From Clavaria fumosa (lineage: Eukaryota > Basidiomycota > Agaricomycetes > Agaricales > Clavariaceae): a stretch of 64,000 bases of DNA. How positions within the stretch are numbered: the first letter of the stretch is position 1; the number at the start of each line of letters is the position of its first letter. The position numbers and the translations under genes were made by a program. Where the stretch lies: the NCBI GenBank assembly GCA_951802425.1, contig OX637800.1, forward strand, positions 496,001-560,000. The letters run 5' to 3'. Shown one piece after another: positions 16,118 through 36,826 of the stretch. The notes beneath the pieces are model-generated. The model made no database searches. It had not been told where the DNA came from and was given only the letters and a program-made list of their open reading frames with translations.

Positions 16118-16119
16118 AC

Positions 16120-19156: not shown

Positions 19157-19993
19157 AGGTGCCACCACAAGTACAAACTTGTGTGAGGATGTGAGAACTG
19201 GATTCTGACTATATGCTGGAATTGTTGCTTTGTGGGTGATGGGAGGGGAGAGAGAGGGATGGAATATGATAGGTATGGGATGGCCCAGTATAGCATTCCA
19301 TTTGTTTTGGAATCCTATGGTTGGTTTTGATAAATGGGAGAATTTTGACTGGTTTGGTCAGCAGCTCTGGCATGCATTGGGAAATAAGTTTGGGGAAAAT
19401 GTAAACCATGGAAATTGAGGATTAGAGGGGTAGATATAGGCACACAAAATTTCAAAAGACTAGCTTGAGTGGTTAGCTTGCAGTGAAAGAAAGCGCAGAT
19501 GCTCCATCTGCACAAGGACTATGCTGTTAGAAAGTGGAGCATTGGCCACTTGGTAGTGAATGGTATGGGGGGTTAGAGGGGGTATAGGGAAAGGGTGTGG
19601 GTGCTTTACATAAGTGTTTTAGTGTCCAGGTCCAAAGATCCCGGGAAAATGAGTTTTTTGGGCATTTTCAGGGGATCTTTGAAAGTAGAAGCTTAGGGGA
19701 TCAGGTAAGTGGCCATAAACCATTGATATACTATAGAGAATGTCTCCTCAAAGTTTCATAGGCCTCCCATGCCTACGTATTGTACAATATGCTATTCTTT
19801 GTAATGATACACTAGGAAGAGGCCAAAATGAAAACCAGGGGATCTTTTGAAGTAGCAAGTGGGGTGAGACATGATCCATACAAAAGTTGTATTGTTTTAC
19901 CTATAGAACATGTCTACAAGGTTCCTATAACACATTTTGCAGTTTTTTATTATGTGGCCAAACTTGCATTGGCCATTTGTTTTACAGCTAGGT
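19157..19993. repeat. Duplicated segments Y' (19,157-19,530) and X' (19,531-19,993)
   Basis: Second copies of Y and X, in swapped order. X' directly abuts the truncated 3' end of the Gypsy-C gag at 19,993/19,994. Confidence 0.75.
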
Positions 19994-20995
19994 CTGTTTC
20001 GCAGTCTGCTTCTTGGGGCAATTCTTGGCCAAATGGCCAGTTTTGTGGCATGTGAAGCATCGTCCTTCTTTAAAGTGTCTGATGCGTTCTTCTGGATTCA
20101 TTTGCACTGCTCAGATCTGTCGCCCAGCTGGCCTTCGTACTAGACCACCCCTCTCCCTCATGCGTGTGAGGATTCTTTCTTCGAATCGTAAGGCCGCATG
20201 CAGCAGGTCGGACATGCTTTCTGGTCGTGTTATATTGACCATTGCATCCTTGATGCTTTCCTTTAGTCCAGCGTAGAACTGATGCATCAGTGCGGCTTCA
20301 TTGTAATCCGTGAGTGGTGCGTCCTTCATGAAGGCTGCGTAGTAGTCAGCTACGGTGGTGGTCTGTCGGAGCTTCTCAATTCTCTGCTGCGCTTCAATCC
20401 TTGTGTCCAATGGTCCCCAGAGTCTCTTAGCCTCCCTGACTAGGGTCTCGAAGTCATCCAAAAGTGGGTCTGGGATGGCTCGTTCGAGGGACTGGAGGAT
20501 CCCATAGGCCCATGGCTGGACGTTCTCTCCTTCGCAGAGTCGTAACAGGTACATTGCCTTATTTCGGTCTGAAGCAAAGTACCCTGGGTAGCTCTGGAAG
20601 TACACCCGTAGCTGGATTGTGAATGGTCCCCAGTTCTTCCTCTGGCCGTCGAAGGGTTTGGGTGCCGGGGGTCTCGGTCCTCTCCCATCGTCCCTCGAAT
20701 CTGGGTCTGGGGCCGGGGTAGAGGTGGGGATTCGGGTTGTCCGGATTCTGAATGGGTCCGGATCAGGCCTCCACTCCTCTCCTGGGGACTCCATTTCTGG
20801 TCTGGGGACCTCCATACTCTGTTCTCCTATAACAGATGATGGTACCACCAGTGATCCTTCCCCTCTGGGGGTTGTCGATCCCTCAATCTCTGAGGGGCTG
20901 GCAGTCAGTCCTGCTCCCGCCGGGTCTATTCTGGCTGGTGTTGCCGGCCCTTTCTTTGTTCCTATTCCGAACTTGGCTAATGTCTCTTTACTCAT
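19994..20995 (-). pseudogene. Gypsy-C Gag, truncated
   Basis: ATG at 20,995 opens 294 codons with a Pro-rich N-terminus and a capsid-like core (KPFDGQRKNWGPF through to MREFGG-like endings). A stop at 20,111 comes before the knuckle CFTCHKTGHLAKNC. The knuckle is read in another frame starting MNPEERIRHF near 20,077, so a frame break separates it. The rest is lost at 19,993. The gag ATG overlaps the leader ORF stop as ATGA (20,992-20,995). Confidence 0.85.
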
Positions 20996-21795
20996 GTCAC
21001 CGAGTAATTCACGTCGTAGATATAGTCGAAGTTAATGTTCTGAATTCTTCCTAATTGGTCTCGTCCAATTGTCGGGCTTCCTCGTAGGCTTGTTAATCGC
21101 ACCTTTCGGCAATAGTCTCGTGGGTTGCAGTGGACGTGTGGGAGAGTTATTCCGTCTCCAAATTCTATTGCAATTCCGTGTGCCTCGTCTCTCGAGGGTG
21201 GTAATGGTCGGTCTGGTCTTTCTTGGTCTGGTCTCTCTGACTCCTCGGTTGTCTCCTCTTGTTCCGTAGAGCGTTGTTCAGGTGTTACGGGAAGCGGGGC
21301 CGAAGGCTCGGAGGTGCTTTCCGTCAGGTGATCAGGTGCCGGGATTATGTTAGTCCCGAGTGCCGGAATGAGAGGATCGAACGCTGTCTGGTCGATTGGG
21401 TCAAATTGGGAAATTACTCTGTCGCTGGGTCTTCCGGGACCTAGGAAAGAGCGAAGTAGGGTGGTTCTGGCTCTGTACTCGGAGTCAGAGGCTTTGATGA
21501 CTCGTTGCCTGAGATTGGCTACTCCTCGCGCGAATGCATGCTCGAGGGCTTGGCGGTTGGGGTGATCGTGTCCAAGGATATCGACGCAAATAGAATGACT
21601 GAACTCAGTCAGGTGGTGTGTGAGTCGTGTGATCTGCGCTCGTCGCTGAGTCAGCGTCGGGTAGATCCGTCCGGAGGTTGGCGTAGTTGCTACTTCGGGC
21701 CAGGAGGAGAGGGGGTATCTCTCGTCGGCAGTAGGGAAAGCCAGTGTGATTTCACCAAAGTACGATAAGGTGATAAGGGACAAGTGAACAACGCT
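20992..21795 (-). CDS. Gypsy-C AUG-less leader ORF (ORF0)
   Basis: From the predicted cap site (21,795) to the gag AUG the RNA is open in one frame for 267 codons and has no in-frame AUG. In all three frames only one AUG exists (21,539), and it opens a six-codon uORF. The product would be hydrophilic with a Pro/Glu-rich middle. The stop overlaps the gag start. Whether it is translated (near-cognate TTG at 21,783 or another route) or is simply kept clean for scanning is unknown. The same arrangement is seen in Gypsy-D. Confidence 0.55.
   Translation of the reverse strand, partial: SVVHLSLITLSYFGEITLAFPTADERYPLSSWPEVATTPTSGRIYPTLTQRRAQITRLTHHLTEFSHSICVDILGHDHPNRQALEHAFARGVANLRQRVIKASDSEYRARTTLLRSFLGPGRPSDRVISQFDPIDQTAFDPLIPALGTNIIPAPDHLTESTSEPSAPLPVTPEQRSTEQEETTEESERPDQERPDRPLPPSRDEAHGIAIEFGDGITLPHVHCNPRDYCRKVRLTSLRGSPTIGRDQLGRIQNINFDYIYDVNYSVT
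21270..21280 (-). other. Gypsy-C self-priming primer binding site
   Basis: TGAACAACGCT (minus strand), two bases after the LTR end, is exactly complementary to the predicted RNA start AGCGTTGTTCA at 21,795-21,785. This match was what located the inner LTR boundary at 21,283, where the sequence indeed has the expected TG/CA terminus. Confidence 0.72.
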
Positions 21796-22187
21796 AAGGG
21801 GTTTCCCATGTCACTGCACCCCTTATATACCTCAGGGGTGCTGCGGGTCCCTGCGGCGCAGTCCATCGTCCGCAGCCCAAGGATGCTATCCATCTACTGC
21901 GGCGTATCTTTCCGCAAGCCTGCTCAGTCCGCAGCTGCCTGTTACTGCTCTTCGACGCAGCTGCCCTTGTGGGGCCGCGCAGCCCGCAGCTTGCCGAATG
22001 CTGCCCTACACTCTTATCTTGAACATCATCGCCTTTCGCTTATCGGCCCATGTGCTGCTCCGCAGTCTTCCGCATGGCACGGCTTATCTCCACATGTTCC
22101 TTCACCCGTCATGTGTTCCTGTGTGACGGTCCTTTCCCACCACCTCGCTTATCTTCCGGCTCTTACCCGTCCCTTGTAGTATATAAG
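21785..22187. promoter_or_regulatory. Gypsy-C divergent promoter
   Basis: Minus-strand TATATAAG starts at 21,829, 34 nt before the predicted sense start site at 21,795. Plus-strand TATATAAG at 22,180-22,187 lies 37 nt before the antisense gene ATG. The ~350 bp between them is dense in CCGCAG/CTGCGG words, which look like an iterated regulator site. Confidence 0.6.
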
Positions 22188-22223
22188 GAGGGCTTGTACC
22201 GCTTCTCTTCCCCATCCTCTGGT

Positions 22224-22713
22224 ATGTGCTGGGGCCCTCACAAACTCAACTTCCTCCCCTCCTCCAATGTCTTCCAACAAGTTGCCCCCCTTGTACTCTC
22301 TTGTGCAGCCTTCCACTGGGCCGTTCAGAGGGGAGCCGACGACCTCCTCATCCTTACCGTTGCTCGACGATGCTATGCTTGCGGCCATCCTGGCCATTTT
22401 GCGTCGGGATGCCCTCGGGTCGTCCGCCCGGGCAACCTTATCTGTGACCTACTCGAGGACCCCCATAGTACCGTCTTTTCTTCCATTTCTCATTTGCTTT
22501 GCTGATTACTTTCTTGCAGGATGGGATTGCACTCCCCCTACTCGGTGGACTTCTCCCACCTCCTACTCCGGGTGGAACTCCACTCCCCCACCCTCATCCC
22601 CTCCGTCAGCCCCTGCGATGGCTATGGTGGCTCTACCAGACGTCGAGGGCGAGTATGTCCAGGCTGGGGAGTCTCCTTCTCAATCGGTGGACGAGGATAG
22701 GCTCTGGGTCTAG
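22224..22713 (+). CDS. Antisense CCHC zinc-knuckle gene in the Gypsy-C LTR
   Basis: Two exons, 22,224-22,467 and 22,520-22,713, separated by a 52-nt intron (GTACCG...CTGAT...TTGCAG). The protein is 145 residues. It starts MCWGPHKLNF, has LSCAAFHW, then the knuckle CYACGHPGHFASGC and ICDLLEDPH. After the splice it continues W-D-C-T-P-P with a Ser/Pro-rich, acidic tail ending DEDRLWV. Gypsy-D encodes an alignable protein with the intron at the same codon and phase. CCHC knuckles bind single-stranded nucleic acid, so an RNA-binding or Gag-like regulatory role is possible but unproven. Confidence 0.75.
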
Positions 22714-22967
22714 TGGCCCGAACGTCGAGGTTTCCTTTTGACGTAATACATAGTTTCTGGTTTCGGATTGGTTTTTGTATTACTTAGGTGCTTCGATCCC
22801 ATAAACCAATCCCCAATGGCCATCAACAGCGAGGAGCATCTCCTCGCTCTTGATTGCCATTGGTACTTTGGTTTTCCTGTCTCTAGTGTTGCGGTTGTCC
22901 TAGTCGTGTTGCCTTTGTTGTAGTTTGCCTTGGTTACATAATCGACTTTGTCATTCTTCCCATGACA

Positions 22968-23556
22968 TTTATGGACTTGGAGTGGGTGAAAAAAGTGGGA
23001 CTAGAACCCTCCCTCCTGCTGAACCCAATCACCATGTATAATGTGGATGGGACGCAGAACAGGAATGGGAAAATCTGGTATGGGATGGACTTGCTTGTTG
23101 CAGTTGGTGACCACCAGGAGCGGATCCACTTCCTGTTAGGGAAGACCCAGTCTCACATGGTGATCCTTGGGCATGACTGGCTAAAGCAACATAACCCAGA
23201 GATCGACTGGGTGAAAGCTGAAGTAAAACTCACCTGCTGCCCCCATGCCTGTACCTCTCCCCCACACAACCACCCGACTCCTAAACGAGCCACTACACCC
23301 CCAAAAACGAGTACCCTGGCCTCTACCAGTATTCCGGACACCTGTTTTCCCAACACTGGCCCCACACCCGATTGGCCCAGCCTGCACCCCATGGTCTTTA
23401 GTGAAGCAAAGTGGGATGAGCTCCCTCGCTCCCAGCCTGACTTTGACATTAAAATTGAGTTCAAGACCAATCCTGGCCACCTCTCCACTAAGCTGTACTC
23501 TCTAATGCGAGAAGAGATGGTGGAGATGAATCGCTGGGTGGATGAGCAGCTGGCTG
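22968..23556 (+). pseudogene. Protease fragment of a Gypsy-E family element
   Basis: Reads FMDLEWVKKVGLEP, then the GHDWLK and PEIDW motifs, ending VDEQLA. This is over 80% identical by eye to residues around the protease-RT linker of the Gypsy-E Pol, on the opposite strand. It is cut at the left by Gypsy-C and at the right by the RFC1 fragment. The protease DSG loop has been lost. Confidence 0.88.
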
Positions 23557-23960
23557 CTTAGTTCACTGATGAACACGAATGACAAGCCTGCAAGACAATT
23601 CTATGATGCGGGCTCAGGGACTGGCTTAGAGCCAGGCGCTTTTGGGCCAGCGAGTCTGGCGGCCTTCGCAGCAACCCAGCTGAAAAAGAGAAAAGCGTGA
23701 GTTCAAAGACATCAGTGACGAGGAAAGAAGGGAGCGCACTTGAATTTGGGCTTCGCCGGCTCGACTTCATCGGGTTTCATGGCAGGCGGCTTGATCTTCT
23801 TCGACTTGGTTGGGATGAGATCGTCATCATCATCATTGTTAATAAAGTCGTCATCCTTAATGACGTCTATTTCGTAGTCATCATCTAGCTTCCCCTGTGC
23901 CTTGAGATTTTCCACGAGGTGGACGGAGCGGCCGCGCTCTCGCGACTGGGCCGAGGCCTG
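23557..23960 (-). pseudogene. RFC1 (replication factor C large subunit) fragment, 3' part
   Basis: Minus-strand reading gives an acidic linker (KLDDDYEIDVIKDDD...), a 60-nt intron (23,739-23,680) and then NWVAAKAARLAGPKAPGSK. A TAG interrupts PEPAS-NCLAGLSFVF, the start of the RFC1 BRCT domain. RFC1 is the clamp-loader subunit that loads PCNA. The intron is retained, so this is a genomic fragment, not a processed copy. A frameshift lies near 23,900. The CDS continues on the far side of Gypsy-D. Confidence 0.8.
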
Positions 23961-24350
23961 TGTCGGGCTTGTGACAGCAAAACCCCTTTGGTGTGCAAGG
24001 GTAGAGCGAAGGGTCTGTTCAGTTTCTAATGCTAGTCGATAGTCCTGGCGGACTTGTCTCTCGATATACAGGGAATACTCCTGTAGTAGTCGAAGTGTCT
24101 GGTAATAAGTCTGGGGATTGGCTCGGAGTAGTCGGTCCTTTATCCAAGTCCTTGTATACCTTTGGTAATACTCGAACCGATAGAGGTTCTGCTCAATCGA
24201 TGGGTGGCTGGTGAAACTCTCAGGAGGGACGACTTGCGACCTTAAAGGTGGGAAGACGAATCCTTCCAGCGCGAAGTTCTCAGCAGCGACGTTTGCTGTC
24301 AGACTTAGTTGAGGTCTCTCAAGTAAGTGTATAGACGAAAAGATCGAAGC

Positions 24351-24790
24351 TAGGGTACATGTGGGTTGGTCCCAGGTCTTATATACTCTAGCTATGGGCT
24401 GTACGTGATGTATGAGTCATTGATTAAATATCGGAATCTGATAGATGATCAGGAAAGCTGCACGCTTGCACTGGAATGATGAGTCCGAGCAGTGTCGATC
24501 TTTGTTGGGATCCTTGTGATGATGATGTCATCTGCGATTAGATAGGGTCCCCGCTTCGATGCATTACATCACATCAGCTGTATCTGATCCTGTTGAGGAT
24601 ATGATCGGAGGATCAGTTGATCTGTGATCGAGTTGCTCTGAGTCATGATCACTTGATCGATCGGTGTGATGTAGTGATCGAGTGAAACTGATCTTTGATC
24701 AGAGATCTTCTTAGGGGTGATCGTGTCTGGTGGATAGGGGTCTGTCCGATCGAGGTCGAGATCAGTCCGTGGTGGTTATTGGATAAAAGG
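24351..24790. promoter_or_regulatory. Divergent promoter in the Gypsy-D LTR (left copy)
   Basis: Minus-strand TATATAAG starts at 24,385 and drives the sense direction. Plus-strand gataaaagg at 24,782-24,790 lies about 45 nt before the CCHC gene ATG. Between them, 24,560-24,725 contains more than a dozen TGATC/GATCA words, several as palindromic TGATCA-like sites. The identical right copy is at 31,755-32,194. Confidence 0.6.
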
Positions 24791-24832
24791 ACGGTCTCCC
24801 TCCTTTCGCCGTCCCTTCAGAGTCTGCCTGTT

Positions 24833-25619
24833 ATGTGCTTCCAAGGCCACCACCTCGTCGAGTTCTTCCACAGCTCCTCCCTCTTCGCTCCCCGCACTGG
24901 GATCAAGCTCTCCTGCGATACCTTCCATTGGTGGGTTCAACTTGTCCCTGCCGATGCGGACCTCTACTGGGTCCTCGATCGATGCTTCGCCTGTGGGGAT
25001 CCCTCCCACCTTGTCAAGGATTGCTCTTTGACCCAAGGTCCTTACCGACGTATTTGTGACCTTCTCGAGGACCCTCATGGTGAGTTAGCCGAGCTGCTTC
25101 TCTCTGTCTCCAGTAAGTCTGATTCTTTATAGATTGGGACTGGGCTCCTCCCCGTCCTCCCTCGCCGACTGCTTGGGCCACTACCCCTTGGGGTGACCAA
25201 GGCACTTGGTACCAAGGTGGGCAGGATTGGGCTGAGATCGGTTCTGGTCCTGTACATCCGGCTTACCATCCCCAGGTCCAGATCCCCAACCTCTGGATAC
25301 CCCGTTGGTGGCGCCTCCTCCATCGCCCTCCCTTCCTACCGTTGACCTCCCCCCCGCCTATTCCCCCCTCCCGTCTCCTACTCTGGACGACGGAGGTTCT
25401 CTCGGCGCTGTGCGAGATCTGCGAGAGGCTGCCCTGGAGGCGGGAATCTGGGATGGTCAGTTTGCCTCCCATCCCTTGAGGGTAGCTCTCGGGTTCGTGG
25501 GTGAGTCTGACTTCTCAGACTCTTCAGATGAGTCATGGGAAGAGGAGTCTTGGGGGTCTGAGTACAGCACCTCGGGCTCCTCCCTTGATGAAGAGGGGTC
25601 TTGGCTTTCTTTCGTGTAG
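24833..25619 (+). CDS. Antisense CCHC zinc-knuckle gene in the Gypsy-D left LTR
   Basis: Exon 1 is 24,833-25,079 and intron 1 is 25,080-25,132 (53 nt; GTGAGT, branch CTGAT, TTTATAG). A likely second intron, 25,217-25,275, restores frame into an acidic final exon ending 25,619; together they give 224 residues. Without it the frame stops at 25,479. The protein begins MCFQGHHLVEFF, contains LSCDTFHWW, the knuckle CFACGDPSHLVKDC and ICDLLEDPH, then WDWAPP and a tail DEEGSWLSFV. Intron 1 has the same position and phase as in Gypsy-C. Function is unknown; a nucleic-acid-binding accessory factor is the natural guess. Confidence 0.75.
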
Positions 25620-25766
25620 ATAAGTATTGTACTTATCTTGCGATAAAATATATAGTTGGGGTTTAACCCCTTGTTCGCCTGATTTGCATGGTGTTCCTTA
25701 AGTTAAAGGATTGAAATTTGCTGGCCTGGTAGTACGGACGACGCTTTCATGACACGACCCTCTCTC

Positions 25767-28700
25767 TTAAGCTTCACCGGAGATTTTCGAGGATGAACCA
25801 CGGGCCTTCCTCCTCTTAGCAGTCATCCAGACGAACTCTGGATGGGTGTCATGAAAGTGTCTGATTGCCTCTTCCGCGTGTCCCAATTCCTTCTCTGGTT
25901 TCCACATGTCTTCGTTTGGTCCATATCCTTCCCATCCGACTAGGTACTGTTTCTGACTTCGCCATAGCCGTCCATCCTTGATCTCACCAATCTCGTACTC
26001 CTCTTCTCCCTCCACTTCCACTGGCGGTGGTGGGGGTTCTACTCGTCCTGGAATCATTGATTCTTCGTATGGATATAGCAGGGAGATGTGAAACACTGGG
26101 TGGACCCGAATCGAGGCTGGTAGTTCCAATTTGTAGTTGACGTCAGAGAGAACTTCAATGACCTCAAATGGTCCTAGTCGTCGATCGGCCAGTGTCTTAC
26201 TGGGGGCTGTGGTGGTGATATTTCTGGCATCTAACCACACCTTCTGTCCTAGTTTAAATGGTGATTCTTTCTGACGGTCCTTGTCGTAGTACCGCGCCAT
26301 TTGTTCCTGAGACAGCTTCATAGCTGCTCTCAGTTCGTCCTGTACCTGATGGAGATGGCTGACTACTTCCTCCGCCTTGGGCACCCCTGTATCCTTTCCT
26401 GTGTCAAATGTCATCCTTGGATGATATCCCCTCGCAGCATAGAAGGGAGATTGCTTAGTGGTGGTGCTAACATTGTTGTTGTAGGCGAATTCTGCCATTG
26501 GCAGGTAGTGGCTCCAGTCATTCTGTCGATAGCGACAGAAGAGTCGTAAGTATTGCTTTAAGGTCTGATTGATTCGTTCGGTCTGTCCATCTGTCTGTGG
26601 GTGGTATGCAGTGGAATAGGCCCCCTGTACGCCTAACTTCTTGAACACTCCTCTCATCAACTTGGATGTGAATTGTGTTCCTCGGTCTGAGATCATCTTC
26701 TCTGGGACTCCATGCAGCTTCCAGACATGTTGTAAATACAAGTCAATGGTCTCTTCTGTGTCAATGTCTGACTTGACTGGAATGAAATGTGCTTCCTTGG
26801 TTAGATGGTCTGCTACCACCCAAATTCCATCGTATCCTGCCGACTTAGGTAATTCCACGATGAAGTCATTGGTGGCCACTTGCCAAGGTCGTTCTGCTGG
26901 TGGAATGGGTCGAAGTTCCCCTCTGGGCTTCTGCGCCCAGTTCTTCTTCCGATTGCAGGTGTCGCAGGTTTCTACGTAATGCTTGATGTACCTGGTCATC
27001 CCTGGCCACCAGTAGTTCCGGGAAATAAGTTCCATTGTCTTGTAGACCCCTGGATGGCCTACTTCTAATGAGTCGTGGTGCAGTTTAACCAGATCTCTTC
27101 GTATCCCTGGGTTGTCTGGTACGCATACCTTCCCCTGGAAGAGTAGTAATCCATCTTCCAGGTTCCAATCTTCCAGTCCTTTTCGCAGTTGCCTTGGTCC
27201 CATCTTCAGGAGTTTCATTGCTTCCATCACCTCTGGGTCGTACTCTACTTCCTTCCTAATTCGTTTCCGAATAGGGTGATCCTGGAGGCTTGAAGCATGT
27301 CCTCTCTTCATGGCACAGATCCTAATCCTTTCTGGTTGTAGCACTTCTGGGGAGTTCAGCTGTAGGACCTGCCATCCTTGGTTGTCTGGGGTTTCTGGCT
27401 TATGGTCGGGCCTCCGTGATAGTTTGTCTGGCTTCCCTCCCAGTCGTCCAGGTCGATGCTTGATCTCGTAGTCAAATCGTGTCAGGAATAAACCCCACCT
27501 CGCCTGTCTCCGGGTGAGTGTCTGTGCTCCCCCAAAGTATTGCAAGTTCTGATGGTCAGATAGAATGGTTACCCTGTGTCGTGCCCCTTCTAAGTAATGT
27601 CGCCACTGCTTAAGAGCCAGAATGATAGCCAGTAGCTCCTTGTCGTAAATCTGGTAGTTTCTCTCAGCGGCATTCATTGCTTTTGACATGAAGGCTATCG
27701 GGTGCACATTCCCATCCTCTCCCTTCTGTGACAATACTGCTCCGACTGCAAAGTCTGAAGCATCACACTCCACTACATAGGGCTCCTCCGGATTTGGGAT
27801 GATCAAGACAGGGGCGTCCTTGAACTTATCCTTGTACTGTCTGAATGCTTGTCTTTGTTCCTCTCCCCATTCAAAGACCTTCCCTTTCTTCAATAGACTA
27901 GTCAAAGGTCTGACCTGTTCAGAGTACCCTTTGATAAACCTTCGGTAGAAATTGCCGAACCCCAGGACTTCCTGTATCCCCTTCACAGTTGTTGGTTCTG
28001 GCCAGTCCATGATCGCCTGTACCTTTGCTGGATCCATTCTGATTTGATTGTGTGAAATCAAAAACCCTAAGTATTCCGTCTCTCCACGGAAGAACTTGCA
28101 TTTTTCTGGTTTACAGAATAGGTCATTCTCCTGTAGTCGTCGAAGCACCTCCAGGACTGTCGTCACATGCTCCTCTCTTGTCTCTGAGAATATCAGGATG
28201 TCGTCCAGGTATACCACCACGTTGACCATATCTTTGAATATGTCGTGCATCATCCGCTGGAAGGTTGCCGGGGCGTTACACAGTCCGAACCCCATAACCT
28301 CCGGTTCATACAATCCTTCCTCAGTCACGAAGGCAGCCTTGTACTGGTCTCCTTTCCTTACCCGGACGTTATTGTATCCCCACCGTAAATCCAAGGCCGT
28401 GAAGTAATAGGCCAAGGCCAGCTTGTCAAGTAAGGTCTGAGTCAAGGGTAGTGGGAATCGATCCTTGATGGTAATTGCATTCAGCTTCCTATAATCAACC
28501 ACTAACCTCAGGCTACCATCCTTTTTCTTGATGAAGAACACTGGTGAGGCTGCTGGTGACCCTGGTCCTTCTGACTTCCTGATGTACCCTTTGGCTAGGT
28601 TCTCGTCCAAGTACTCCATCAAGGCTTCTCTTTCTTTCGGGGACATGGCGTACTTCTTGGAGTTAGGTAAGGGCGCTCCTTCCTCCAAGTTTATTGCGTG

Positions 28701-29591
28701 GTCCCATGGTTTCCTCTCGGGAAGTCGTTCTGATGCCTTTTGTTCGAACACCTTCTTGTACCTTCGAAACTCCTTGGGTACCATTTCTTCGAACGTCCGT
28801 ACCTTCTCTTGTCGAAGTACCTGCTCTGCTATTTGCTGTGACTTGGTAAACCCTGCGGCGATTTGCATGATCCTTTCTGTATCCGTAACCTCGAACACTT
28901 GGTCTCCCTCTTCGGGTTGGTCATCTTCATTGGGTTCTTCTTCTTCTCCCTCTAGACATTCAGTGGTGTCTTCGAATTCCTTCATCAACCTCTGAAAGGT
29001 GTCCTTTGCATTTATTCCTCCAAAGCTCATTGTCACTGGGGTATAGCGCCTCCCTTTCTCTTTCGTGCAGCTCACCGGGCACTTGGAGAATGTGAACTTC
29101 CCTGTCCTCCAATCTATGGTTGGGTTGTGTTTCCTCAACCAGTCGATTCCTATGATGACGTCTTCGACCCCTATGTCTGCTATCAATAGGTTCTCCTTTG
29201 ATTCATGCCCCTGTGCCTTCAGGGTCGCCTTCACTTGATGGGTGATCTTCCCGATCTGGTTAGGGGTCCCATCAATATTGGTCAGGGAAATTGCCTTTCT
29301 GAGGTGCTGTCGCCTGAATCGCTTGGCCAGTCTTGGGGATATGAACAGACTTGAGGCCCCACTGTCCACCAGTGCCCTTACCTTAGTATTTATTCTCTCA
29401 GTCTCCAGCATGATGTCAAGATAAATATGGTCATCATTTGGGACTGATCGAATAAATACAGGTGCAGACTCTGGGGTACTATAGGTCGAAGAGTTTGTGG
29501 GTTCTCCCTTCAACCTTCCTGAAAATCCTCTTCTTTCTTGGTTTCTTCGTTTGCTGTTCCTCGGATTTGCATTCTCTGTCGTTGAGGACAT
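25767..29591 (-). CDS. Gypsy-D Pol polyprotein
   Basis: 1,274 codons from ATG 29,591, overlapping gag by 82 nt in the -1 frame. Protease: VDSGASS and IIGIDWL. Reverse transcriptase: VDYRKLN, MGFGLCNAPATFQ, YLDDIL. RNase H: ECDASDFA, YDKELL, SDHQN. Integrase: H..H zinc region ending CDTCNRKK, catalytic NDF, SDRGTQF and QTDGQTERINQ. It ends with HPVFH and a chromodomain (YLVGWEGYG...MWKPEKEL) followed by a basic tail. No inactivating change is seen. Expression is either by -1 shift or from its own AUG. Confidence 0.96.
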   Translation of the reverse strand: MSSTTENANPRNSKRRNQERRGFSGRLKGEPTNSSTYSTPESAPVFIRSVPNDDHIYLDIMLETERINTKVRALVDSGASSLFISPRLAKRFRRQHLRKAISLTNIDGTPNQIGKITHQVKATLKAQGHESKENLLIADIGVEDVIIGIDWLRKHNPTIDWRTGKFTFSKCPVSCTKEKGRRYTPVTMSFGGINAKDTFQRLMKEFEDTTECLEGEEEEPNEDDQPEEGDQVFEVTDTERIMQIAAGFTKSQQIAEQVLRQEKVRTFEEMVPKEFRRYKKVFEQKASERLPERKPWDHAINLEEGAPLPNSKKYAMSPKEREALMEYLDENLAKGYIRKSEGPGSPAASPVFFIKKKDGSLRLVVDYRKLNAITIKDRFPLPLTQTLLDKLALAYYFTALDLRWGYNNVRVRKGDQYKAAFVTEEGLYEPEVMGFGLCNAPATFQRMMHDIFKDMVNVVVYLDDILIFSETREEHVTTVLEVLRRLQENDLFCKPEKCKFFRGETEYLGFLISHNQIRMDPAKVQAIMDWPEPTTVKGIQEVLGFGNFYRRFIKGYSEQVRPLTSLLKKGKVFEWGEEQRQAFRQYKDKFKDAPVLIIPNPEEPYVVECDASDFAVGAVLSQKGEDGNVHPIAFMSKAMNAAERNYQIYDKELLAIILALKQWRHYLEGARHRVTILSDHQNLQYFGGAQTLTRRQARWGLFLTRFDYEIKHRPGRLGGKPDKLSRRPDHKPETPDNQGWQVLQLNSPEVLQPERIRICAMKRGHASSLQDHPIRKRIRKEVEYDPEVMEAMKLLKMGPRQLRKGLEDWNLEDGLLLFQGKVCVPDNPGIRRDLVKLHHDSLEVGHPGVYKTMELISRNYWWPGMTRYIKHYVETCDTCNRKKNWAQKPRGELRPIPPAERPWQVATNDFIVELPKSAGYDGIWVVADHLTKEAHFIPVKSDIDTEETIDLYLQHVWKLHGVPEKMISDRGTQFTSKLMRGVFKKLGVQGAYSTAYHPQTDGQTERINQTLKQYLRLFCRYRQNDWSHYLPMAEFAYNNNVSTTTKQSPFYAARGYHPRMTFDTGKDTGVPKAEEVVSHLHQVQDELRAAMKLSQEQMARYYDKDRQKESPFKLGQKVWLDARNITTTAPSKTLADRRLGPFEVIEVLSDVNYKLELPASIRVHPVFHISLLYPYEESMIPGRVEPPPPPVEVEGEEEYEIGEIKDGRLWRSQKQYLVGWEGYGPNEDMWKPEKELGHAEEAIRHFHDTHPEFVWMTAKRRKARGSSSKISGEA

Positions 29592-30880
29592 TCACGAGCA
29601 AGGTGTCCTTTCTGATCGCAAATAAAACATGTTCCTTCTTTGAGTCGTCTCATCCGTTCTGCTGGGGCGAGTCTCGAGGCTTTGATCGCCACTCTGTTCA
29701 TGTCTCCCCTGGCTGTCTCTCCTTTGAAGGGTTGTCTGGGCGTCTTCCAGACTGGTCCCCTTTCTCTGATTCTTGTTAGGATACCTTGTTCATACTGGAT
29801 GGCCACTCCAAGCAGTCCGGACACCGTTTCTGGTCTCTCGACATGCACCAGGAGATCCTTGATTGCTGGTTTCAATCCGTGATAGAACATCTCTCCTAAG
29901 GCGATTTCATTGTATCCACTCGGTACTGACCATCTGGTGAACATGGCGTGGTATTCAGATACTGTCTTCTCCTGTTTGAGTTCTCTGAGCTTTGCCCTGG
30001 CCATCTGTGGTTCATTGATGGGGCCCCAGAGTTTGGCGGCCTCTCCGAGGAGTGCGTTCCAATCACTGAGGAAGGGATGTTGCTGTGGGGTCCCTATTGT
30101 TGTCAATAATCCATAGGCCCAAGTCTTCACTACAGGTCCTTCAAACCATCGCAGGAACTGCAGGCACCTTGCTTCGTCTTGACCAGCTCCAAAATAGAAT
30201 GGGTATGCTGCGAAATATAGGTATGCCTGCACTACGAATGGTCCCCAGTTCTCTCGCTCTCCATCAAATGGGACAGGGGGTGTTGGCTTTGGTGGTTTAG
30301 GTATTCCTATCCTCTCTGGCATTCCGATCATTCCTGGGTACCCTCCTCCTGGTGGGCCCCCTCCTGGTGGGCCTCCTCCTGGTGGGCCTCCTCCTGGTGG
30401 GCCCCCACCTGGTGGTTCCCCTCCTGGCGGTCTCCTCCCGAATGGTTCACTCCCAGAAGGGTCCCTCCCTGGTGGGCCTCCACCTGGTGGTTTGCTTCCG
30501 GTCCCTCTTGATAAGGTGAAGGGGTTAAACTCTGCTGCAGGTGTGGTGCTTTCCTTTACTCCTTCGAAGGGATCTGTCGACATGGTGACCCTTCCTTTGC
30601 CCTTTGGTGCTGGTGTTGGTGTTGTCGGTTCCTGCTTGGGTATAAAGTATTCCCGTTCTGCACTCACGGAGGTCTCCACCTCTGGTAGTCCCATCCTCGC
30701 CCTATATGTGGCTTCTTCTTCCCTGTGTGCGGCCATTCTGGCTTCAAACTCTCTTTCCTTCTTGAAGATGTCTTCTTCTAGACTTGATGCCATAAGTGAA
30801 GTCTGTCTTTCTGCTGTATAGGCCGTGGCAATCTTTGCCCCTCCCTTGCTCCCTGGAATATCTTCTTTAACGGAGCTCAT
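29510..30880 (-). CDS. Gypsy-D Gag
   Basis: 456 codons from ATG 30,880. It has a helical charged N-terminus, a Pro/Gly repeat region with tandem GGPPGGGP units, a capsid-like core (PFDGERENWGPF onward) and one knuckle CFICDQKGHLAREC. Its ATG lies inside the last 14 nt of the leader ORF. Confidence 0.95.
   Translation of the reverse strand: MSSVKEDIPGSKGGAKIATAYTAERQTSLMASSLEEDIFKKEREFEARMAAHREEEATYRARMGLPEVETSVSAEREYFIPKQEPTTPTPAPKGKGRVTMSTDPFEGVKESTTPAAEFNPFTLSRGTGSKPPGGGPPGRDPSGSEPFGRRPPGGEPPGGGPPGGGPPGGGPPGGGPPGGGYPGMIGMPERIGIPKPPKPTPPVPFDGERENWGPFVVQAYLYFAAYPFYFGAGQDEARCLQFLRWFEGPVVKTWAYGLLTTIGTPQQHPFLSDWNALLGEAAKLWGPINEPQMARAKLRELKQEKTVSEYHAMFTRWSVPSGYNEIALGEMFYHGLKPAIKDLLVHVERPETVSGLLGVAIQYEQGILTRIRERGPVWKTPRQPFKGETARGDMNRVAIKASRLAPAERMRRLKEGTCFICDQKGHLARECPQRQRMQIRGTANEETKKEEDFQEG
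29522..29528 (-). promoter_or_regulatory. Possible -1 frameshift heptamer G GAT TTT
   Basis: The gag zero frame reads GAG GAT TTT CAG GAA GGT TGA, placing G GAU UUU four codons before the stop. The same heptamer occurs in frame near the gag end of Gypsy-E. GGAUUUU is a known -1 site in some plant RNA viruses. Pol has its own AUG upstream of it (29,591), so reinitiation is an alternative. Confidence 0.45.
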
Positions 30881-31755
30881 CAGTATGACTTCTTCTTTCG
30901 TGCGGGTTCCTGCAAATGATCTCTATGATCCTTCCTTCCGGGTTATGCTCGATCTGTACTTCTGCTCTGAGTGCGTCAAGCCAGGTGATTGGGTACCCTA
31001 GGTTGGCGTAGTCTTGGTGTTTAAACTCGAGTGCGGGTACAAATGAGATGACTGGATTTCTTTCTCGCTCTGCTATCCCTTCCTGGGCAGCGTATAATAC
31101 TTGCAGGTTCCGATGTGCGGTTCTCCTCTGAATGCTTCTGGGGGGTATTACTCTCCCTAAGGGTCGTGTCCACAATACTGCGGCGTCTAAGACTCGTCCC
31201 ACTACGTTCTGTTCCAAATTGGTAACAGAGATATCTGAATCGTCTGGGTCAACGTGTCTTCTTCTTCTTCGAGGTAGTCTCTCTCGTCTTTCTTCAGAGG
31301 TGTCTGTGGTCTCCCAATCCGGTTCTCTCTCTCGCTCTAGGCTTACTGAAGAGCTTCGATCTTGTGTCGGGCTTGTGACAGCAAAACCCCTTTGGTGTGC
31401 AAGGGTAGAGCGAAGGGTCTGTTCAGTTTCTAATGCTAGTCGATAGTCCTGGCGGACTTGTCTCTCGATATACAGGGAATACTCCTGTAGTAGTCGAAGT
31501 GTCTGGTAATAAGTCTGGGGATTGGCTCGGAGTAGTCGGTCCTTTATCCAAGTCCTTGTATACCTTTGGTAATACTCGAACCGATAGAGGTTCTGCTCAA
31601 TCGATGGGTGGCTGGTGAAACTCTCAGGAGGGACGACTTGCGACCTTAAAGGTGGGAAGACGAATCCTTCCAGCGCGAAGTTCTCAGCAGCGACGTTTGC
31701 TGTCAGACTTAGTTGAGGTCTCTCAAGTAAGTGTATAGACGAAAAGATCGAAGCT
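30867..31755 (-). CDS. Gypsy-D AUG-less leader ORF (ORF0)
   Basis: From the predicted cap site at 31,755 to the gag ATG at 30,880 no AUG exists in any frame, about 875 nt. One frame (from 31,754) stays open for 295 codons and ends 14 nt into gag. It runs across the LTR end at 31,365. The putative product is rich in aromatic and basic residues, with coiled-coil potential (TYYQTLRLLQEYSLY), an RRRRR patch and a conserved-looking C-terminal domain. An ATG scarcity this strong plus a fully open frame is unlikely by chance. Translation would need a near-cognate start. Confidence 0.55.
31352..31363 (-). other. Gypsy-D self-priming primer binding site
   Basis: AAGATCGAAGCT (minus strand), one base after the LTR end, is exactly complementary to AGCTTCGATCTT at 31,755-31,744, which begins 34 nt after the TATATAAG at 31,789. 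Confidence 0.75.
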
Positions 31756-32194
31756 AGGGTACATGTGGGTTGGTCCCAGGTCTTATATACTCTAGCTATG
31801 GGCTGTACGTGATGTATGAGTCATTGATTAAATATCGGAATCTGATAGATGATCAGGAAAGCTGCGCGCTTGCACTGGAATGATGAGTCCGAGCAGTGTC
31901 GATCTTTGTTGGGATCCTTGTGATGATGATGTCATCTGCGATTAGATAGGGTCCCCGCTTCGATGCATTACATCACATCAGCTGTATCTGATCCTGTTGA
32001 GGATATGATCGGAGGATCAGTTGATCTGTGATCGAGTTGCTCTGAGTCATGATCACTTGATCGATCGGTGTGATGTAGTGATCGAGTGAAACTGATCTTT
32101 GATCAGAGATCTTCTTAGGGGTGATCGTGTCTGGTGGATAGGGGTCTGTCCGATCGAGGTCGAGATCAGTCCGTGGTGGTTATTGGATAAAAGG
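31755..32194. promoter_or_regulatory. Divergent promoter in the Gypsy-D LTR (right copy)
   Basis: Sense TATATAAG (minus strand) starts at 31,789 and antisense gataaaagg is at 32,186-32,194. The TGATC-rich core lies between them as in the left copy. Confidence 0.6.
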
Positions 32195-32236
32195 ACGGTC
32201 TCCCTCCTTTCGCCGTCCCTTCAGAGTCTGCCTGTT

Positions 32237-33023
32237 ATGTGCTTCCAAGGCCACCACCTCATCGAGTTCTTCCACAGCTCCTCCCTCTTCGCTCCCCGCA
32301 CTGGGATCAAGCTCTCCTGCGATACCTTCCATTGGTGGGTTCAACTTGTCCCTGCCGATGCGGACCTCTACTGGGTCCTCGATCGATGCTTCGCCTGTGG
32401 GGATCCCTCCCACCTTGTCAAGGATTGCTCTTTGACCCAAGGTCCTTACCGACGTATTTGTGACCTTCTCGAGGACCCTCATGGTGAGTTAGCCGAGCTG
32501 CTTCTCTCTGTCTCCAGTAAGTCTGATTCTTTATAGATTGGGACTGGGCTCCTCCCCGTCCTCCCTCGCCGACTGCTTGGGCCACTACCCCTTGGGGTGA
32601 CCAAGGCACTTGGTACCAAGGTGGGCAGGATTGGGCTGAGATCGGTTCTGGTCCTGTACATCCGGCTTACCATCCCCAGGTCCAGATCCCCAACCTCTGG
32701 ATACCCCGTTGGTGGCGCCTCCTCCGTCGCCCTCCCTTCCTACCGTTGACCTCCCCCCCGCCTATTCCCCCCTCCCGTCTCCTACTCTGGACGACGGAGG
32801 TTCTCTCGGCGCTGTGCGAGATCTGCGAGAGGCTGCCCTGGAGGCGGGAATCTGGGATGGTCAGTTTGCCTCCCATCCCTTGAGGGTAGCTCTCGGGTTC
32901 GTGGGTGAGTCTGACTTCTCAGACTCTTCAGATGAGTCGTGGGAAGAGGAGTCTTGGGGGTCTGAGTACAGCACCTCGGGCTCCTCCCTTGATGAAGAGG
33001 GGTCTTGGCTTTCTTTCGTGTAG
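32237..33023 (+). CDS. Antisense CCHC zinc-knuckle gene in the Gypsy-D right LTR
   Basis: Second copy of the LTR gene: exons 32,237-32,483, 32,537-32,620 and (tentative) 32,680-33,023. The three coding-region differences from the left copy by eye are CpG transitions and none opens a stop. It is divergent from the leader-gag-pol transcript that starts at 31,755. Confidence 0.75.
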
Positions 33024-33158
33024 ATAAGTATTGTACTTATCTTGCGATAAAATATATAGTTGGGGTTTAACCCCTTGTTCGCCTGATTTGCATGGTGTTC
33101 CTTAAGTTAAAGGATTGAAATTTGCTGGCCTGGTAGTACGGACGACGCTTTCATGACA

Positions 33159-33889: not shown

Positions 33890-35831
33890 CATCATCAGCA
33901 AAACCTGTTTTTGGATTGTAGAAGCCATAGAAGGCCATAGACACCATAGAATTGGGTGTATCTATGCAGGCCTCTGCAGCTCTTCATAGACTAAGGTACA
34001 TCTATGCAGTACTATGGAGATGAGGCCTTTCTGGAGCTGCAGTCTGTTCGAATGGCCCTTGTTCAAGTTGTAGAACACGGTGCTATGTACCACTAGTAGA
34101 GCCCACCGCTGTGGCCGTCATTGTCATGCGCCGCCGCTGCCCTCGTCATCACTGTGCACCGCCGCCGCTGCTGCCACTGCCGCCCTCGTCACTGTCTGCT
34201 GCCGCTGCCGCCGCCACCGTCGTCACTGTCCGCCGCCGCTGCCCTCGTCACTGTCCCGCCGCCGCTGCCGCCACCGCCCTCGTCACTGCCCGCCGCCACC
34301 GCCACTGCCATCCTCGTCACTGTCCGCCGCCGTCCTCATCAATGTCCGCCGCCAACGCCGCGCCGCCGCCCTTGTCATCTCTGTTCGCCGCTGTCATCGT
34401 TACTGCCTGCCGCCGCCGCCGCCGTCCTCGTCACCGTCCGCCGCCGCTGCCGCCGCCGCGCTCGTCGTCACTGTCCGTCGCCGCTGCTGCCCTCGTCACT
34501 GTCCGCCGCTGACGACGCGCCGCCGCCCTTGTCGTCACTGTCCGCCACCATCGTCGTCACTGCCCGCTGCCGCCACCGCCGCCGCTGCCCTCGTCACTGT
34601 CCCGCCGCCGCTGCCGCCACCGCCCTCGTCACTGCCCGCCGCCACCGCCACTGCCATCCTCGTCACTGTCCGCCGCCGTCCTCATCAATGTCCGCCGCCA
34701 ACGCCGCGCCGCCGCCCTTGTCATCTCTGTTCGCCGCTGTCATCGTTACTGCCTGCCGCCGCCGCCGCCGTCCTCGTCACCGTCCGCCGCCGCTGCCGCC
34801 GCCGCGCTCGTCGTCACTGTCCGTCGCCGCTGCTGCCCTCGTCACTGTCCGCCGCTGACGACGCGCCGCCGCCCTTGTCGTCACTGTCCGCCACCATCGT
34901 CGTCACTGCCCGCTGCTGCCACCGCCGCCGCCGCCCTTGTCACTGTCCGCCGCCGCTGCTGCCGCCGCCCTCGTTGTCACTGTCCGTCGCTGCCGCCGCC
35001 GCCACCCTCGTCGTCACTGTCCGTTGCTGCCGCTGCCGCCGCCGACGACGACTCGCCGCTGCCCTTGCCATTACTGCCCGCCGCCGTCATCGTCACTTGC
35101 TGTCGTGCTCACTGCCACTGGTATTATGTAATCTGAAATATTACCATGTGATCATGTTGAACATGACACATCACTCTCGGCACCCTCCACATCTCTCCTC
35201 CCTCTCTTTCCTCCTTCTCCCTCTCCTTCAGCGGCAGCGGCGGCGCGATGACGGCGATGACGACGACGGCAGCGGCAGCGGCGGCGGCGGCACCCGCACC
35301 CCCCTCTCTCCCCTCCCTCTCCTCCCCCTCTCCCTCTCCTCCCCCTCCCCCTCTCCTTCAGCGGCGGCGGCGGCAGCGGTAGCGGCACCCTCTCCCTCTC
35401 ATCTCTCCCTCTCCCTCACCCTCTCTCCTCCCTCTCTCCTCCCTCTCTCCTCTCTCCTCTTCTCCCACCCCCCAGAGACGATAACGGCGGCGACGGGTGG
35501 GAACCACCAGGTGTGCCCCCCCCGCCTTTTTTTCGTTTTTGTTTTCTTTTTTGTTGTTGTAAATTTGCTATTTCCAGGGTAACGGACAACGGCGGTAATG
35601 ATAGACAGCAACCACGACAACGACGGCAGCGGCTCTCCCTCTCCCTCTTTTCCCTCTCCCTCTCCTTCAGTGGCGGCAGCGGCGGCGGCGACAGTGACAG
35701 CGGCGGTGGCAACGGCGGCGGCGGCAACAGCGGCGGCAACAACACTGGGTGCGCCCTCCCCCATCTTGTTTCATTTTCATTTCATTTTTTTTTTTCCATT
35801 CCACTATTTACAGGTCAACGGACGGCGGCGG

Positions 35832-35864
<33 letters not shown>

Positions 35865-36826
35865 CCCACTCTCTCACCCCTCCTCCTCTTTCTCCTCCCT
35901 CCCTCCCCTCCCTCTCCTCCCTCCCCTCCCTCCTTCCCTCCCTCTTCCTTTCCCTCTCTCTCTCCTCCAGCAACGACGACGATGGCGGCGGCAGCGACAG
36001 CAGCAGCATCGGCAGCAACAGCGGCAGGCGGCGGCGGTGGCGGCGGGCGGCGGCGGAGGCGGCAGCAACAGCGATGGGCGGCGGCAGCGGCGGCAGCAAC
36101 AGCGGCGGGCGGCAGCGGCAGCAGCAACAGCGACGGGCGGCAGCGGCGGCGGCAGCAACAGCGGCGGTGGCAGCAGCAACAGCGGCACCAGCAACAGCGG
36201 CACCAGCGACAGCGGCGGGCGGCGGCGGGCGGCGGCGGCGGCAGCAGCAGCAACAACAGCGATGGGCGGCGGCGGCGGCAGCAACAGCGGCGGGCGGCAG
36301 CGGCAGCAGCAACAGCGGCGGGCGGCAGCGGCAGCAGCAACAGCGGCACCAGCGACAGCGGCGGGCGGCGGCGGGCGGCGGCGGCAGCAGCAGCAGCGAC
36401 AACAGCGACGGGCGGCGGCGGCAGCAGCAGCAGCGACAACAGCGACGGGCGGCGGCGGCAGCAGCAGCGACAACAGTGACGGGCGGCGGCGGCGGCAGCA
36501 GCGGTGACAGCGGCGGGCGGCGGCGGTGGGCGGTGGCAGCAGCAACAGCAGCAGCAACAATGGCCCAGGCCCCCCACTGCGGTCACAGACCGATGACGGG
36601 GACCTGGGCCATTGATTTGCAGCAGCTGGTGTGCAAAGGAATGGAGGGGTGGTGGTGGCAGGCTGGAAGCACCATCTACATAGTGCTACATAGTTCTACA
36701 TAGAAAGGCCTGTATCTATGTAGTTCTATATAGACCAGGAAGTTGTCTATGGGTTCTATGGGTTCTACAGGGTCTATGTAGATCTACACGGTCTACTGCA
36801 GTATCACCCCTGGTTTGCTGATGATG
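33890..36826. mobile_element. GCC/GGC-rich element with CATCATCAGC termini
   Basis: Ends are inverted repeats CATCATCAGCAAAACC and GGTTTGCTGATGATG. Inside each end are many copies of a ctatgtaga/ccatagaa word (33,930-34,030 and 36,670-36,800). The core is strand-asymmetric. 34,110-35,110 is CCGCCG-type with a 345-bp unit repeated twice (from about 34,248 and 34,592). 35,225-36,550 is CGGCGG/CAGCAG-type. Long frames across it (up to 500 codons) are low-complexity A/R/P/S strings and are not credible genes. No target duplication was found. Confidence 0.5.

Follow-up and report, generated by a model that had tools for sequence, protein, structure and literature searches.

Can the LTR of a retrotransposon hold, on the strand opposite to gag-pol, a complete spliced gene, and what would such a gene do? 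The question is raised by a locus of Clavaria fumosa (assembly GCA_951802425.1, contig OX637800.1, positions 496,001–560,000 of the forward strand). This whole stretch of 64,000 nt is the window, and positions below are positions within it. It contains members of two sister families of Ty3 chromoviruses, C and D, and inside the LTRs of both lies what is well supported, as judged from sequence, as an intron-containing gene, antisense to gag-pol and contained entirely within the repeat.

The elements and the genes inside their LTRs

The LTRs measure ∼1.69 kb in C and ∼1.79 kb in D. In both pol frames protease, RT, RNase H and integrase follow in that order, and a chromodomain lies at the end of integrase (Chromo E-values of 8.3e-14 for C and 9.5e-8 for D). 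Among 150 RT matches scored of 1713 candidates, full-length D matches were 69–73% identical to C, and the next family was 59% identical. The C element of the window is a fragment (19989–22967) with a single LTR; a complete C element (L071) has TG...CA LTR ends and a 5-bp duplication, GCTTC. The D element is laid out as follows, with the LTR of the C fragment given first.

21283–22967, minus strand: C 5' LTR, the single one of the fragment (minus-strand element)
23961–25754, minus strand: D 3' LTR (TG...CA ends, 5-bp target duplication GCCTG on both sides of the element)
25767–29591, minus strand: D pol frame (protease, RT, RNase H, integrase and chromodomain, from domain matches)
29510–30922, minus strand: D gag frame (domain scan: Retrotrans_gag-like domain below its cut-off; CCHC knuckle)
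30867–31820, minus strand: D ORF1, an open frame upstream of gag that spans the junction of LTR and internal region
31365–33158, minus strand: D 5' LTR (TG...CA ends, same GCCTG duplication)

A preliminary description had taken 24833–25619 and 32237–33023 for the D LTRs; these intervals are the genes, and the LTRs are the longer stretches listed above. The predicted gene structures, all on the plus strand, are these.

22180–22186, plus strand: TATATAA, TATA-like word of the C gene, 44 nt 5' of the ATG
22224–22467, plus strand: C exon 1 (MCW...CCHC...ICDLLEDPH; ATG at 22224; third positions most variable, non-synonymous changes depleted)
22468–22519, plus strand: C intron 1, 52 nt, phase 1 (GTACCG...CTGAT...TTGCAG; splice words and codon phase)
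22520–22713, plus strand: C exon 2 (WD..PP, acidic end, stop TAG; codon phase and N/S)
24783–24788, plus strand: ATAAAA, TATA-like word of the D gene, 50 nt 5' of the ATG (from 24783)
24833–25079, plus strand: D exon 1, 3' LTR copy (codon phase, depleted non-synonymous changes)
25080–25132, plus strand: D intron 1, 53 nt, phase 1 (GTGAGT...CTGAT...TATAG; splice words and codon phase)
25133–25216, plus strand: D exon 2 (codon phase and N/S)
25217–25275, plus strand: D intron 2, 59 nt, phase 1 (GTGGGC...CTTACCATCCCCAG), ends provisional, placed from the frame change
25276–25619, plus strand: D exon 3 (rich in Pro, with an acidic end and stop TAG); clear support for the frame over ∼25431–25616
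32237–33023, plus strand: second D copy, in the 5' LTR (exons 32237–32483, 32537–32620 and 32680–33023; shift of 7404)

The motifs that the preliminary description had found shared by the C and D genes, including C-x2-C-x4-H-x4-C, are present. So are the TATA-like word upstream of each ATG and the first intron, which interrupts the same codon in the same phase after ...LEDPH and contains CTGAT in both genes. Its picture of two alignable spliced genes also stands, with the amendment that D needs a second intron beyond the one it had recognized.

To follow these features across copies, we aligned 51 of at least 113 D matches, picked for spread and to include LTR pairs, and 46 of at least 64 C-type matches, leaving out L035, L037, L069 and L070 (chimeric or degraded), 11 split copies and a few others. 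In C, both GT and AG of intron 1 are kept in all 46 copies, and TATATAA in 44. In D, GT of intron 1 is kept in 51 of 51 and AG in 49; the other two (L077 and L078) are short stretches that end before the AG. The same two lack upstream sequence and account for two of the eight misses of ATAAAAG, found in 43 of 51. For intron 2 of D, at its provisional ends, GTGGGC is kept in 48 and AG in 49 of the 51.

The second D intron is implied by a change of codon phase. From ∼25433 onward the variable codon position lies in another phase than a one-intron model predicts, and the constrained terminal frame ends at 25619, so a frame change is needed after ∼25222. Pairing a donor GTACCA at 25209 with that same acceptor, 25275, would make an intron of 67 nt and leave the wrong frame. 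Other frame-compatible ends, for example an acceptor at 25281, are possible, as is an intron further on, and 25217–25275 is a provisional placement. Over the first half of exon 3, with five badly aligned copies dropped, the spliced frame gave 0.64 and the unspliced continuation 0.74 of expected N/S, no clear preference. With the intron so placed, the predicted D protein has 224 aa; the spliced C protein would have 145.

Constraint on the antisense frames

We compared exon 1 between families and then among copies. C and D share 132 of 243 nucleotides, and the exon-1 proteins, aligned over 82 columns, reach 44% identity. In 5000 shuffles of columns within codon positions, identical residues numbered 24.8 ± 2.5 and never exceeded 34, versus 36 of 81 observed. 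The two other same-strand frames gave 28 and 27 of 80, and the opposite-strand frames 25, 30 and 21. Between C and D, dN/dS is 0.385.

Within families, pN/pS was 0.07–0.17 in eight divergence bins (51 D copies) and 0.18–0.26 in nine bins (46 C copies). When changes were re-placed on sites matched for base and CpG class, the N/S seen in exon 1 came to 0.37 of expectation in both families, while frames +1 and +2 gave 1.43–2.04. The ratio near 1 across many copies that the preliminary description had named as telling against a gene did not appear; non-synonymous changes are depleted. In both families the fast-evolving codon position also changes phase across intron 1 as splicing predicts, and D shows a further shift.

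In D, constraint shows among variants that several copies share. Among the 51 D copies, non-CpG variants of exon 1 present in at least five copies were 38 synonymous and 6 non-synonymous, versus ∼16 and 28 expected (0.09 of expectation), whereas non-CpG singletons looked neutral (0.88). Shared variants at CpG sites showed no depletion of non-synonymous changes (0.99), which we read as repeated decay. In C the contrast between singletons and shared variants was weak (Fisher p 0.07). LTR pairs, expected to be neutral, gave a pN/pS of 0.32, not near 1, on 36 changes and with the mutation spectrum uncorrected. Exons 2 and 3 of D are compositionally simple and more weakly constrained, at 0.66 and 0.79 of expected N/S, the exon-3 count covering all 51 copies, badly aligned ones included; five of these were dropped from the later exon-3 counts. 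Purifying selection on the C and D antisense frames is thus well supported. Judged by these substitution patterns, the data show that it has kept the gene in lineages that went on transposing.

Copies, descent and relation to known systems

Exon 1 matches at least 113 D-type and at least 64 C-type places in the genome. Of the listed matches, from 150 candidates scored per search, those inspected fall in the C or D LTR families or their relics. When LTR copies were instead picked through regions outside the gene, most carried it. The D gene places (at least 113) compare with 17 neighbour pairs, i.e. two-LTR elements. This survey, together with the codon-phase and N/S tests and the kept splice signals, supports the proposal in the preliminary description of a selected accessory gene that is duplicated with each insertion and read away from the element. 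Exon-1 identity between C and D (44%) is akin to that of Gag (40%) and Pol (52%), which indicates that the gene predates the split of the two families. Fourteen of the 113 listed D matches have one stop each, every one TGA, and a few codons account for most of the stops in the aligned sets; the pattern looks like methylation- or RIP-like decay.

No relative was found among the IMG/VR viral contigs scanned, and among the open-licence PMC papers listed, judged by titles and abstract openings, none reports an antisense spliced gene inside an LTR. Partial parallels are known. Antisense additional frames termed aORF-3R are described for plant elements (gene23 of maize Grande, rice RIRE2, Silene Retand and PvRetro13; PMC7264820), and brtn of Boty in Botrytis is a fungal case (PMC8365987). 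Each element has one such frame, placed downstream of pol and ahead of the 3' LTR. Like them, the C/D gene is antisense to gag-pol, conserved and present in most copies of a family. Unlike them, it falls outside the interval between pol and the 3' LTR: it is complete inside each LTR, hence present twice per element and in solo LTRs, and has conserved introns and a CCHC domain.

HBZ of HTLV-1 is antisense and spliced, has its start codon in an LTR exon and acts back on sense transcription from the LTR; its coding sequence crosses out of the 3' LTR into internal sequence and encodes a bZIP protein, and APH-2 lacks a classical bZIP (PMC3185765). The C/D gene is likewise antisense and starts in the LTR, and codon phase and kept splice words point to splicing. 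Unlike HBZ, it also stops in the LTR, and the Pfam scan found no bZIP. VANC, the anti-silencing protein encoded by VANDAL DNA transposons of Arabidopsis, has been shown to bind dense, family-specific arrays of short motifs in non-coding regions of its elements (PMC5735166, PMC10398659). C and D may similarly pair an element-encoded protein with family-specific arrays, here confined to one part of the LTR; unlike VANDALs they are LTR retrotransposons, and their arrays are known from word counts and from conservation that is significant in D only. The sag gene of mouse mammary tumour virus is a protein gene inside an LTR, in sense orientation; the C/D gene differs in being antisense and in encoding an unrelated protein.

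Candidate roles of the protein

The predicted protein has a conserved, Cys/His-rich domain of ∼82 residues with one CCHC knuckle, followed by a proline-rich part and an acidic tail. Across 32 aligned sequences each of the four knuckle positions is either invariant or kept in 90% or more, and their spacing is that of zf-CCHC. Pfam zf-CCHC (PF00098, cut-off 20.8 bits) scored 17.4 and 18.4 on the exon-1 frames and 15.5 and 18.6 on the spliced proteins; the scan of both spliced proteins returned zinc-knuckle models only. Two AlphaFold predictions of the exon-1 domain were of low confidence (pLDDT 60 and 51). The last 40 residues hold 12 D/E and no K/R in D, and 7 D/E and 1 K/R in C. Between the presumed promoters of gene and element, each LTR has an array of its own word.

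21840–22170, unstranded: C inter-promoter region, 7 CCGCAG words (8 in the count across the C LTR)
24420–24800, unstranded: D inter-promoter region, 16 TGATC words (15 in the 395 nt counted between the promoters)

Neither word occurs elsewhere in its own LTR; the C LTR has five TGATC in its U5 part. The TGATC words are conserved (0 of 373 shifted masks were as conserved), whereas conservation of the CCGCAG words was not significant (31 of 325 shifts as low). Repeated short words are also present, by counts only, in two adjoining stretches of a different long LTR that has no CCHC antisense frame, and such arrays may be general to LTRs.

The preliminary description had proposed an RNA-binding regulator, a silencing antagonist or a Gag modulator as candidate roles. 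We tentatively regard the protein as most likely a nucleic-acid-binding regulator that is specific to its element and acts on its own LTR. The LTR would have two divergent promoters ∼0.4 kb apart, one for genomic RNA and the other for the antisense gene, which would hence lie in U3. The protein would act at or near the array between them, as an activator or anti-silencer. Antisense orientation would keep the introns through retrotransposition, because their splice sites would not be read in genomic RNA, and placement in the LTR would give two gene copies per insertion and a full gene in each solo LTR. Against this reading, a single CCHC knuckle typically binds single-stranded RNA rather than specific DNA sequences. 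An extension of it, possible but doubtful, makes each LTR a self-contained module of divergent promoters, family array and a gene for the array's reader. Solo LTRs would then leave regulator genes that act in trans, feeding or restraining the elements, and protein and array would diversify together.

It is rather unlikely, yet worth weighing, that the protein is instead a Gag-interacting or RNA-chaperone factor. It would bind element RNA or join the particle and tune packaging or reverse transcription, and it might, with solo LTRs as lasting sources, hold down the number of copies in trans. The best solved-structure matches of its profile, to the knuckle only, are indeed retroviral nucleocapsid and Gag chains (2bl6, E 2.6e-5), and the excess of D gene places over neighbour pairs would suit such sources. 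But similarity to D Gag is limited to the 18 residues of the knuckle, which also led us to reject an origin of the D gene from Gag, and the protein is acidic (34 D/E versus 10 K/R in D, 13 versus 9 in C), whereas typical nucleocapsid proteins are basic.

It is unlikely that the protein is a silencing antagonist, one that would target host RNAi or methylation, leave the array unbound and so protect element transcripts. A genome that attacks its elements, as the TGA-only stops among the D matches would suggest, might favour such a factor, but the case is one of analogy, and the Pfam scan found no suppressor-like domain. We think it improbable that the LTR of the C/D ancestor took up a host gene, since retained for a role apart from transposition, as a passenger or to the host's benefit: a captured genomic piece could bring introns and a promoter of its own, but the genome matches inspected among those listed sit in C/D LTR families or relics and gene divergence tracks that of the element. 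A still fainter prospect is that the antisense transcript itself acts, through dsRNA with the 3' end of genomic RNA or through promoter interference. Its mRNA would be complementary to U3 in genomic RNA, and such transcripts are discussed for other elements (PMC7264820), but an RNA-only role leaves unexplained the selection on codons with its phase shift at introns. That there is no gene, the constraint coming from an overlapping signal or the frames being open by chance, is scarcely credible despite the simple, weakly constrained exons 2 and 3 of D and the ambiguous first half of exon 3, since constraint is frame-specific in both families and, with the codon-phase and N/S tests, rules out chance open frames.

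LTRs are usually treated as regulatory DNA. Here the LTR doubles as a gene that is intact, selected and apparently spliced, and that remains in LTRs which no longer flank an element. Survival of introns through retrotransposition would be a simple reason for its antisense placement. C and D form a natural diverged pair, each with its own protein and word array, and with them the role of retrotransposon antisense accessory genes becomes directly testable.

The antisense gene and its host elements

The following features, on families C and D, carry the analysis; the antisense frames were read in the window sequence.

22224-22713, strand opposite to gag-pol: C antisense frame
24833-25619 and 32237-33023, strand opposite to gag-pol: D antisense frames, two copies
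19989-22967: C element in the window, a fragment
23961-33158: complete D element, LTRs of 1794 nt, 5-bp duplication GCCTG
L071 (a copy elsewhere in the genome): complete C element, LTRs of ~1686 nt, duplication GCTTC
20992-21810 (C) and 30867-31820 (D), both on the minus strand: ORF1, a long frame before gag

The preliminary description had reported alignable antisense frames in C and in both D copies, and this held. The frames have in common an MC... start, LSC..FHW, a C-x2-C-x4-H-x4-C knuckle and ICDLLEDPH, and intron 1 (52 or 53 nt, phase 1) falls at the same place, directly after the H of ICDLLEDPH. In both families the entire gene lies within the LTR, with the pol-side LTR edge (in the 3' LTR) on one side of it and the presumed divergent promoter region on the other. 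A short inverted repeat (AGATAAGTA...TACTTATCT) at 25620-25640, directly 3' of the D stop codon, is possibly part of the 3' end of the gene. Fold prediction for the LTR protein was of low confidence.

Among full-length matches of the D reverse transcriptase (RT; 150 of 1713 candidates scored), C stood at 69-73% identity and the next family at 59%. Over aligned parts, C and D are 52% identical in Pol, 40% in Gag and 44% in the LTR protein. In its divergence the LTR protein has thus kept pace with the other parts of the element, and the gene therefore predates the C/D split. For a Ty3 element with RT at 58% (C7:509366, window ~13366), no CCHC antisense frame was found in the window. ORF1 of C shows no likeness to ORF1 of D, though both occupy the same place in the element. 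In each family ORF1 begins in the LTR and crosses the LTR-internal junction, and its translation lacks a methionine. On the minus strand, the LTR part of D ORF1 shows an excess at third positions, though a weak and uneven one; coding on both strands of the LTR is therefore possible.

Selection and predicted splicing

A dN/dS near 1, named beforehand as evidence against a selected gene, was not seen. Pairwise pN/pS of exon 1, which encodes the knuckle, was 0.07-0.17 in D (51 copies, 8 divergence bins) and 0.18-0.26 in C (46 copies, 9 divergence bins), and the C and D genes differ with a ratio of 0.385 (dN 0.57, dS 1.48; 81 codons). Because old copies are rich in C-to-T and G-to-A changes, we used a null in which observed changes were re-placed randomly on sites of equal base and CpG class. 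Exon 1 N/S was then 0.37 of expectation in C and 0.37 in D. Corresponding values were 0.66 for D exon 2, 0.79 for D exon 3 and 0.67 for C exon 2, and 0.99-2.04 for shifted-frame controls. After removal of five poorly aligned copies, the first and second halves of D exon 3 gave 0.64 and 0.40; shifted frames gave 0.74 and 1.78 in the first half, which hence does not decide the frame, and 1.30 and 1.43 in the second.

Variants were also split by frequency. Non-CpG variants of D exon 1 found in at least five copies were 38 synonymous and 6 non-synonymous (0.09 of expectation), versus 9 and 24 for singletons (0.88); taken over all sites, the contrast had a Fisher p of 0.00026. Common variants at CpG sites were without non-synonymous depletion (9 to 16, 0.99), which we read as repeated decay. 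The contrast was also seen for the entire D coding sequence (p 1.8e-6, 46 copies) and D exon 3 (p 0.038). It was weaker in C, with the same direction in exon 1 (0.22 versus 0.53, p 0.07; entire coding sequence p 0.06). Fourteen LTR pairs, pooled, held 17 synonymous and 19 non-synonymous changes, a pN/pS of 0.32 (mutation spectrum uncorrected) rather than ~1, and this goes against a clean selection picture.

Of the 51 D and 46 C copies, 25 in each family keep the whole spliced frame open without indel. Others are broken by a stop only (9 D, 11 C) or by an indel or gap (15 D, 10 C), or are too short (2 D), in line with the decay that dead copies would undergo once inserted. In one LTR pair (L055/L056), both members have a stop at codon 49. 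The element may have transposed with its frame already broken, or CpG decay may have recurred at this codon; the latter is an option because many C copies carry a stop there.

Mean diversity by codon phase showed a third-position peak in the exon-1 frame as far as intron 1, and phase was lost inside the intron. Beyond it, phase was as intron removal predicts, namely 0 in C exon 2 and 1 in D exon 2, where 25163-25222 shows it clearly. In D, codon phase is unclear at 25223-25432 and is 0 between 25433 and the stop. This shift calls for a second intron, with a length of 2 modulo 3. A candidate at 25217/25275 (59 nt) fits; of 51 copies, 48 retain its donor end and 49 its acceptor end. We place intron 2 there provisionally. 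The intron 1 donor GT is present in 51/51 D and 46/46 C copies, and the acceptor AG in 49/51 D (the other two stretches stop short of it) and 46/46 C. Codon phase and splice ends are thus sequence evidence for the predicted splicing of both genes. Going by the retrotransposition cycle, the introns would survive because an antisense gene is on the wrong strand in genomic RNA for splicing.

Copies across the genome

D-type exon 1 occurs in at least 113 places (150 of 188 candidates scored; a piece of 35 residues and another that overlaps a listed copy are excluded), and C-type exon 1 in at least 64 (150 of 202 scored). The matched stretch is stop-free in 99 of the 113 listed D places and has one TGA in 14. 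Among these places, just 17 pairs of neighbours lie on the same strand at a distance of 6.5-9.5 kb, which suggests that most D copies are solo or broken LTRs.

To avoid gene-based choice, a second search used LTR DNA outside the gene, and places were compared by hand with the exon-1 listings. For a D U5 query, the gene lay at the expected distance in 40 of 40 scored matches (135 candidates). For a promoter-side query from a diverged D copy, it was present in 29 of 33 matches (four of the 29 partial), once rows matching query bases 1-303 alone were set aside as presumably other DNA. Of the remaining four, two lack it through an internal deletion (L112, L114) and two are truncated (L111, L113). 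L112 (C6:3054600-3056800) and L114 (C11:2380600-2382800) are D-type LTRs that keep both LTR ends, with the antisense gene deleted. Exon 1 adjoined 29 of 40 scored matches to C promoter DNA (62 candidates; one of the 29 partial). The other 11, mostly near contig ends, had only codons from 24 on, ~2 kb away; from this spacing we infer that ~2 kb of other DNA interrupts exon 1 of these C-type copies (e.g. C15:7554, C14:21331, C9:75786) near codon 23.

A single old copy, L035 (G000:C12:2156769-2158769; oriented position ~970-1142), is a chimeric LTR: U5, promoter side and exon 1 are C-like, and the remainder, from the exon-1 end to the LTR end, is D-like. This looks like template switching between the families at a conserved coding stretch.

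Word arrays and a proposed mode of action

In the region bounded by the antisense ATG and the sense TATA-like word, the D LTR has 16 occurrences of TGATC, counted on both strands (expected 5; as many in 1/500 dinucleotide shuffles), and the C LTR 7 of CCGCAG (expected 0.4; 0/500). The complete D element L072 has 15 TGATC in this region and 0 elsewhere in its LTR, and L071 has 8 CCGCAG there and 0 elsewhere in its LTR. Their internal regions hold 15 TGATC in 5.6 kb (D) and 2 CCGCAG in 4.8 kb (C), and the U5 part of the C LTR has 5 TGATC. D copies carry 10-19 TGATC in 24 of 25 cases (1 in L032). C copies carry 2-8 CCGCAG in the window copy and L038-L068, and 0 or 1 in the relics L035, L036, L037, L069 and L070. 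Divergence from the reference is 7.1% at TGATC positions versus 17.9% outside (23 copies; 0/373 shifted masks as low), and 10.9% at CCGCAG positions versus 16.5% (31 copies; 31/325 as low).

An array by itself is no mark of the antisense gene, since two adjoining stretches taken for another long LTR likewise carry repeated short words, going by word counts. Other features of the window are:

2425-3155, 8553-9278 and 16117-17583: presumed other long LTR (~1.47 kb), dense ACTCCGA/AACTCC-like words
17144-17545, antisense: putative 133-aa low-complexity frame in that LTR
34000-36700: long GC-rich low-complexity stretch, CCGCCG/GGCGGC-type repeats, long open frames on both strands

The C and D LTRs combine a selected, spliced-looking frame with TATA-like words and arrays. 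Transcription may start from both promoters. The N-terminal domain of the LTR protein would bind nucleic acid, and its acidic tail (12 acidic and 0 basic among the last 40 residues in D, 7 and 1 in C) could contact transcription or chromatin machinery; the protein would act on the LTR of its own element. A single CCHC knuckle more often binds RNA, which keeps alive the alternative that the protein binds Gag or RNA.

The C/D gene may be set beside known systems. VANC proteins bind short-motif arrays special to their own transposon families (PMC5735166). HBZ, antisense and spliced, starts in the 3' LTR without having its entire gene there (PMC3185765). Antisense additional ORFs (aORFs) of plant elements and the fungal Boty, of unknown function, lie between pol and the 3' LTR (PMC7264820), whereas the C/D gene is entirely within the LTR. 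Because none of the three, as these accounts describe them, has its entire gene in an LTR, the C/D gene appears to be a distinct form of antisense accessory gene, outside the aORF, HBZ and VANC groups.
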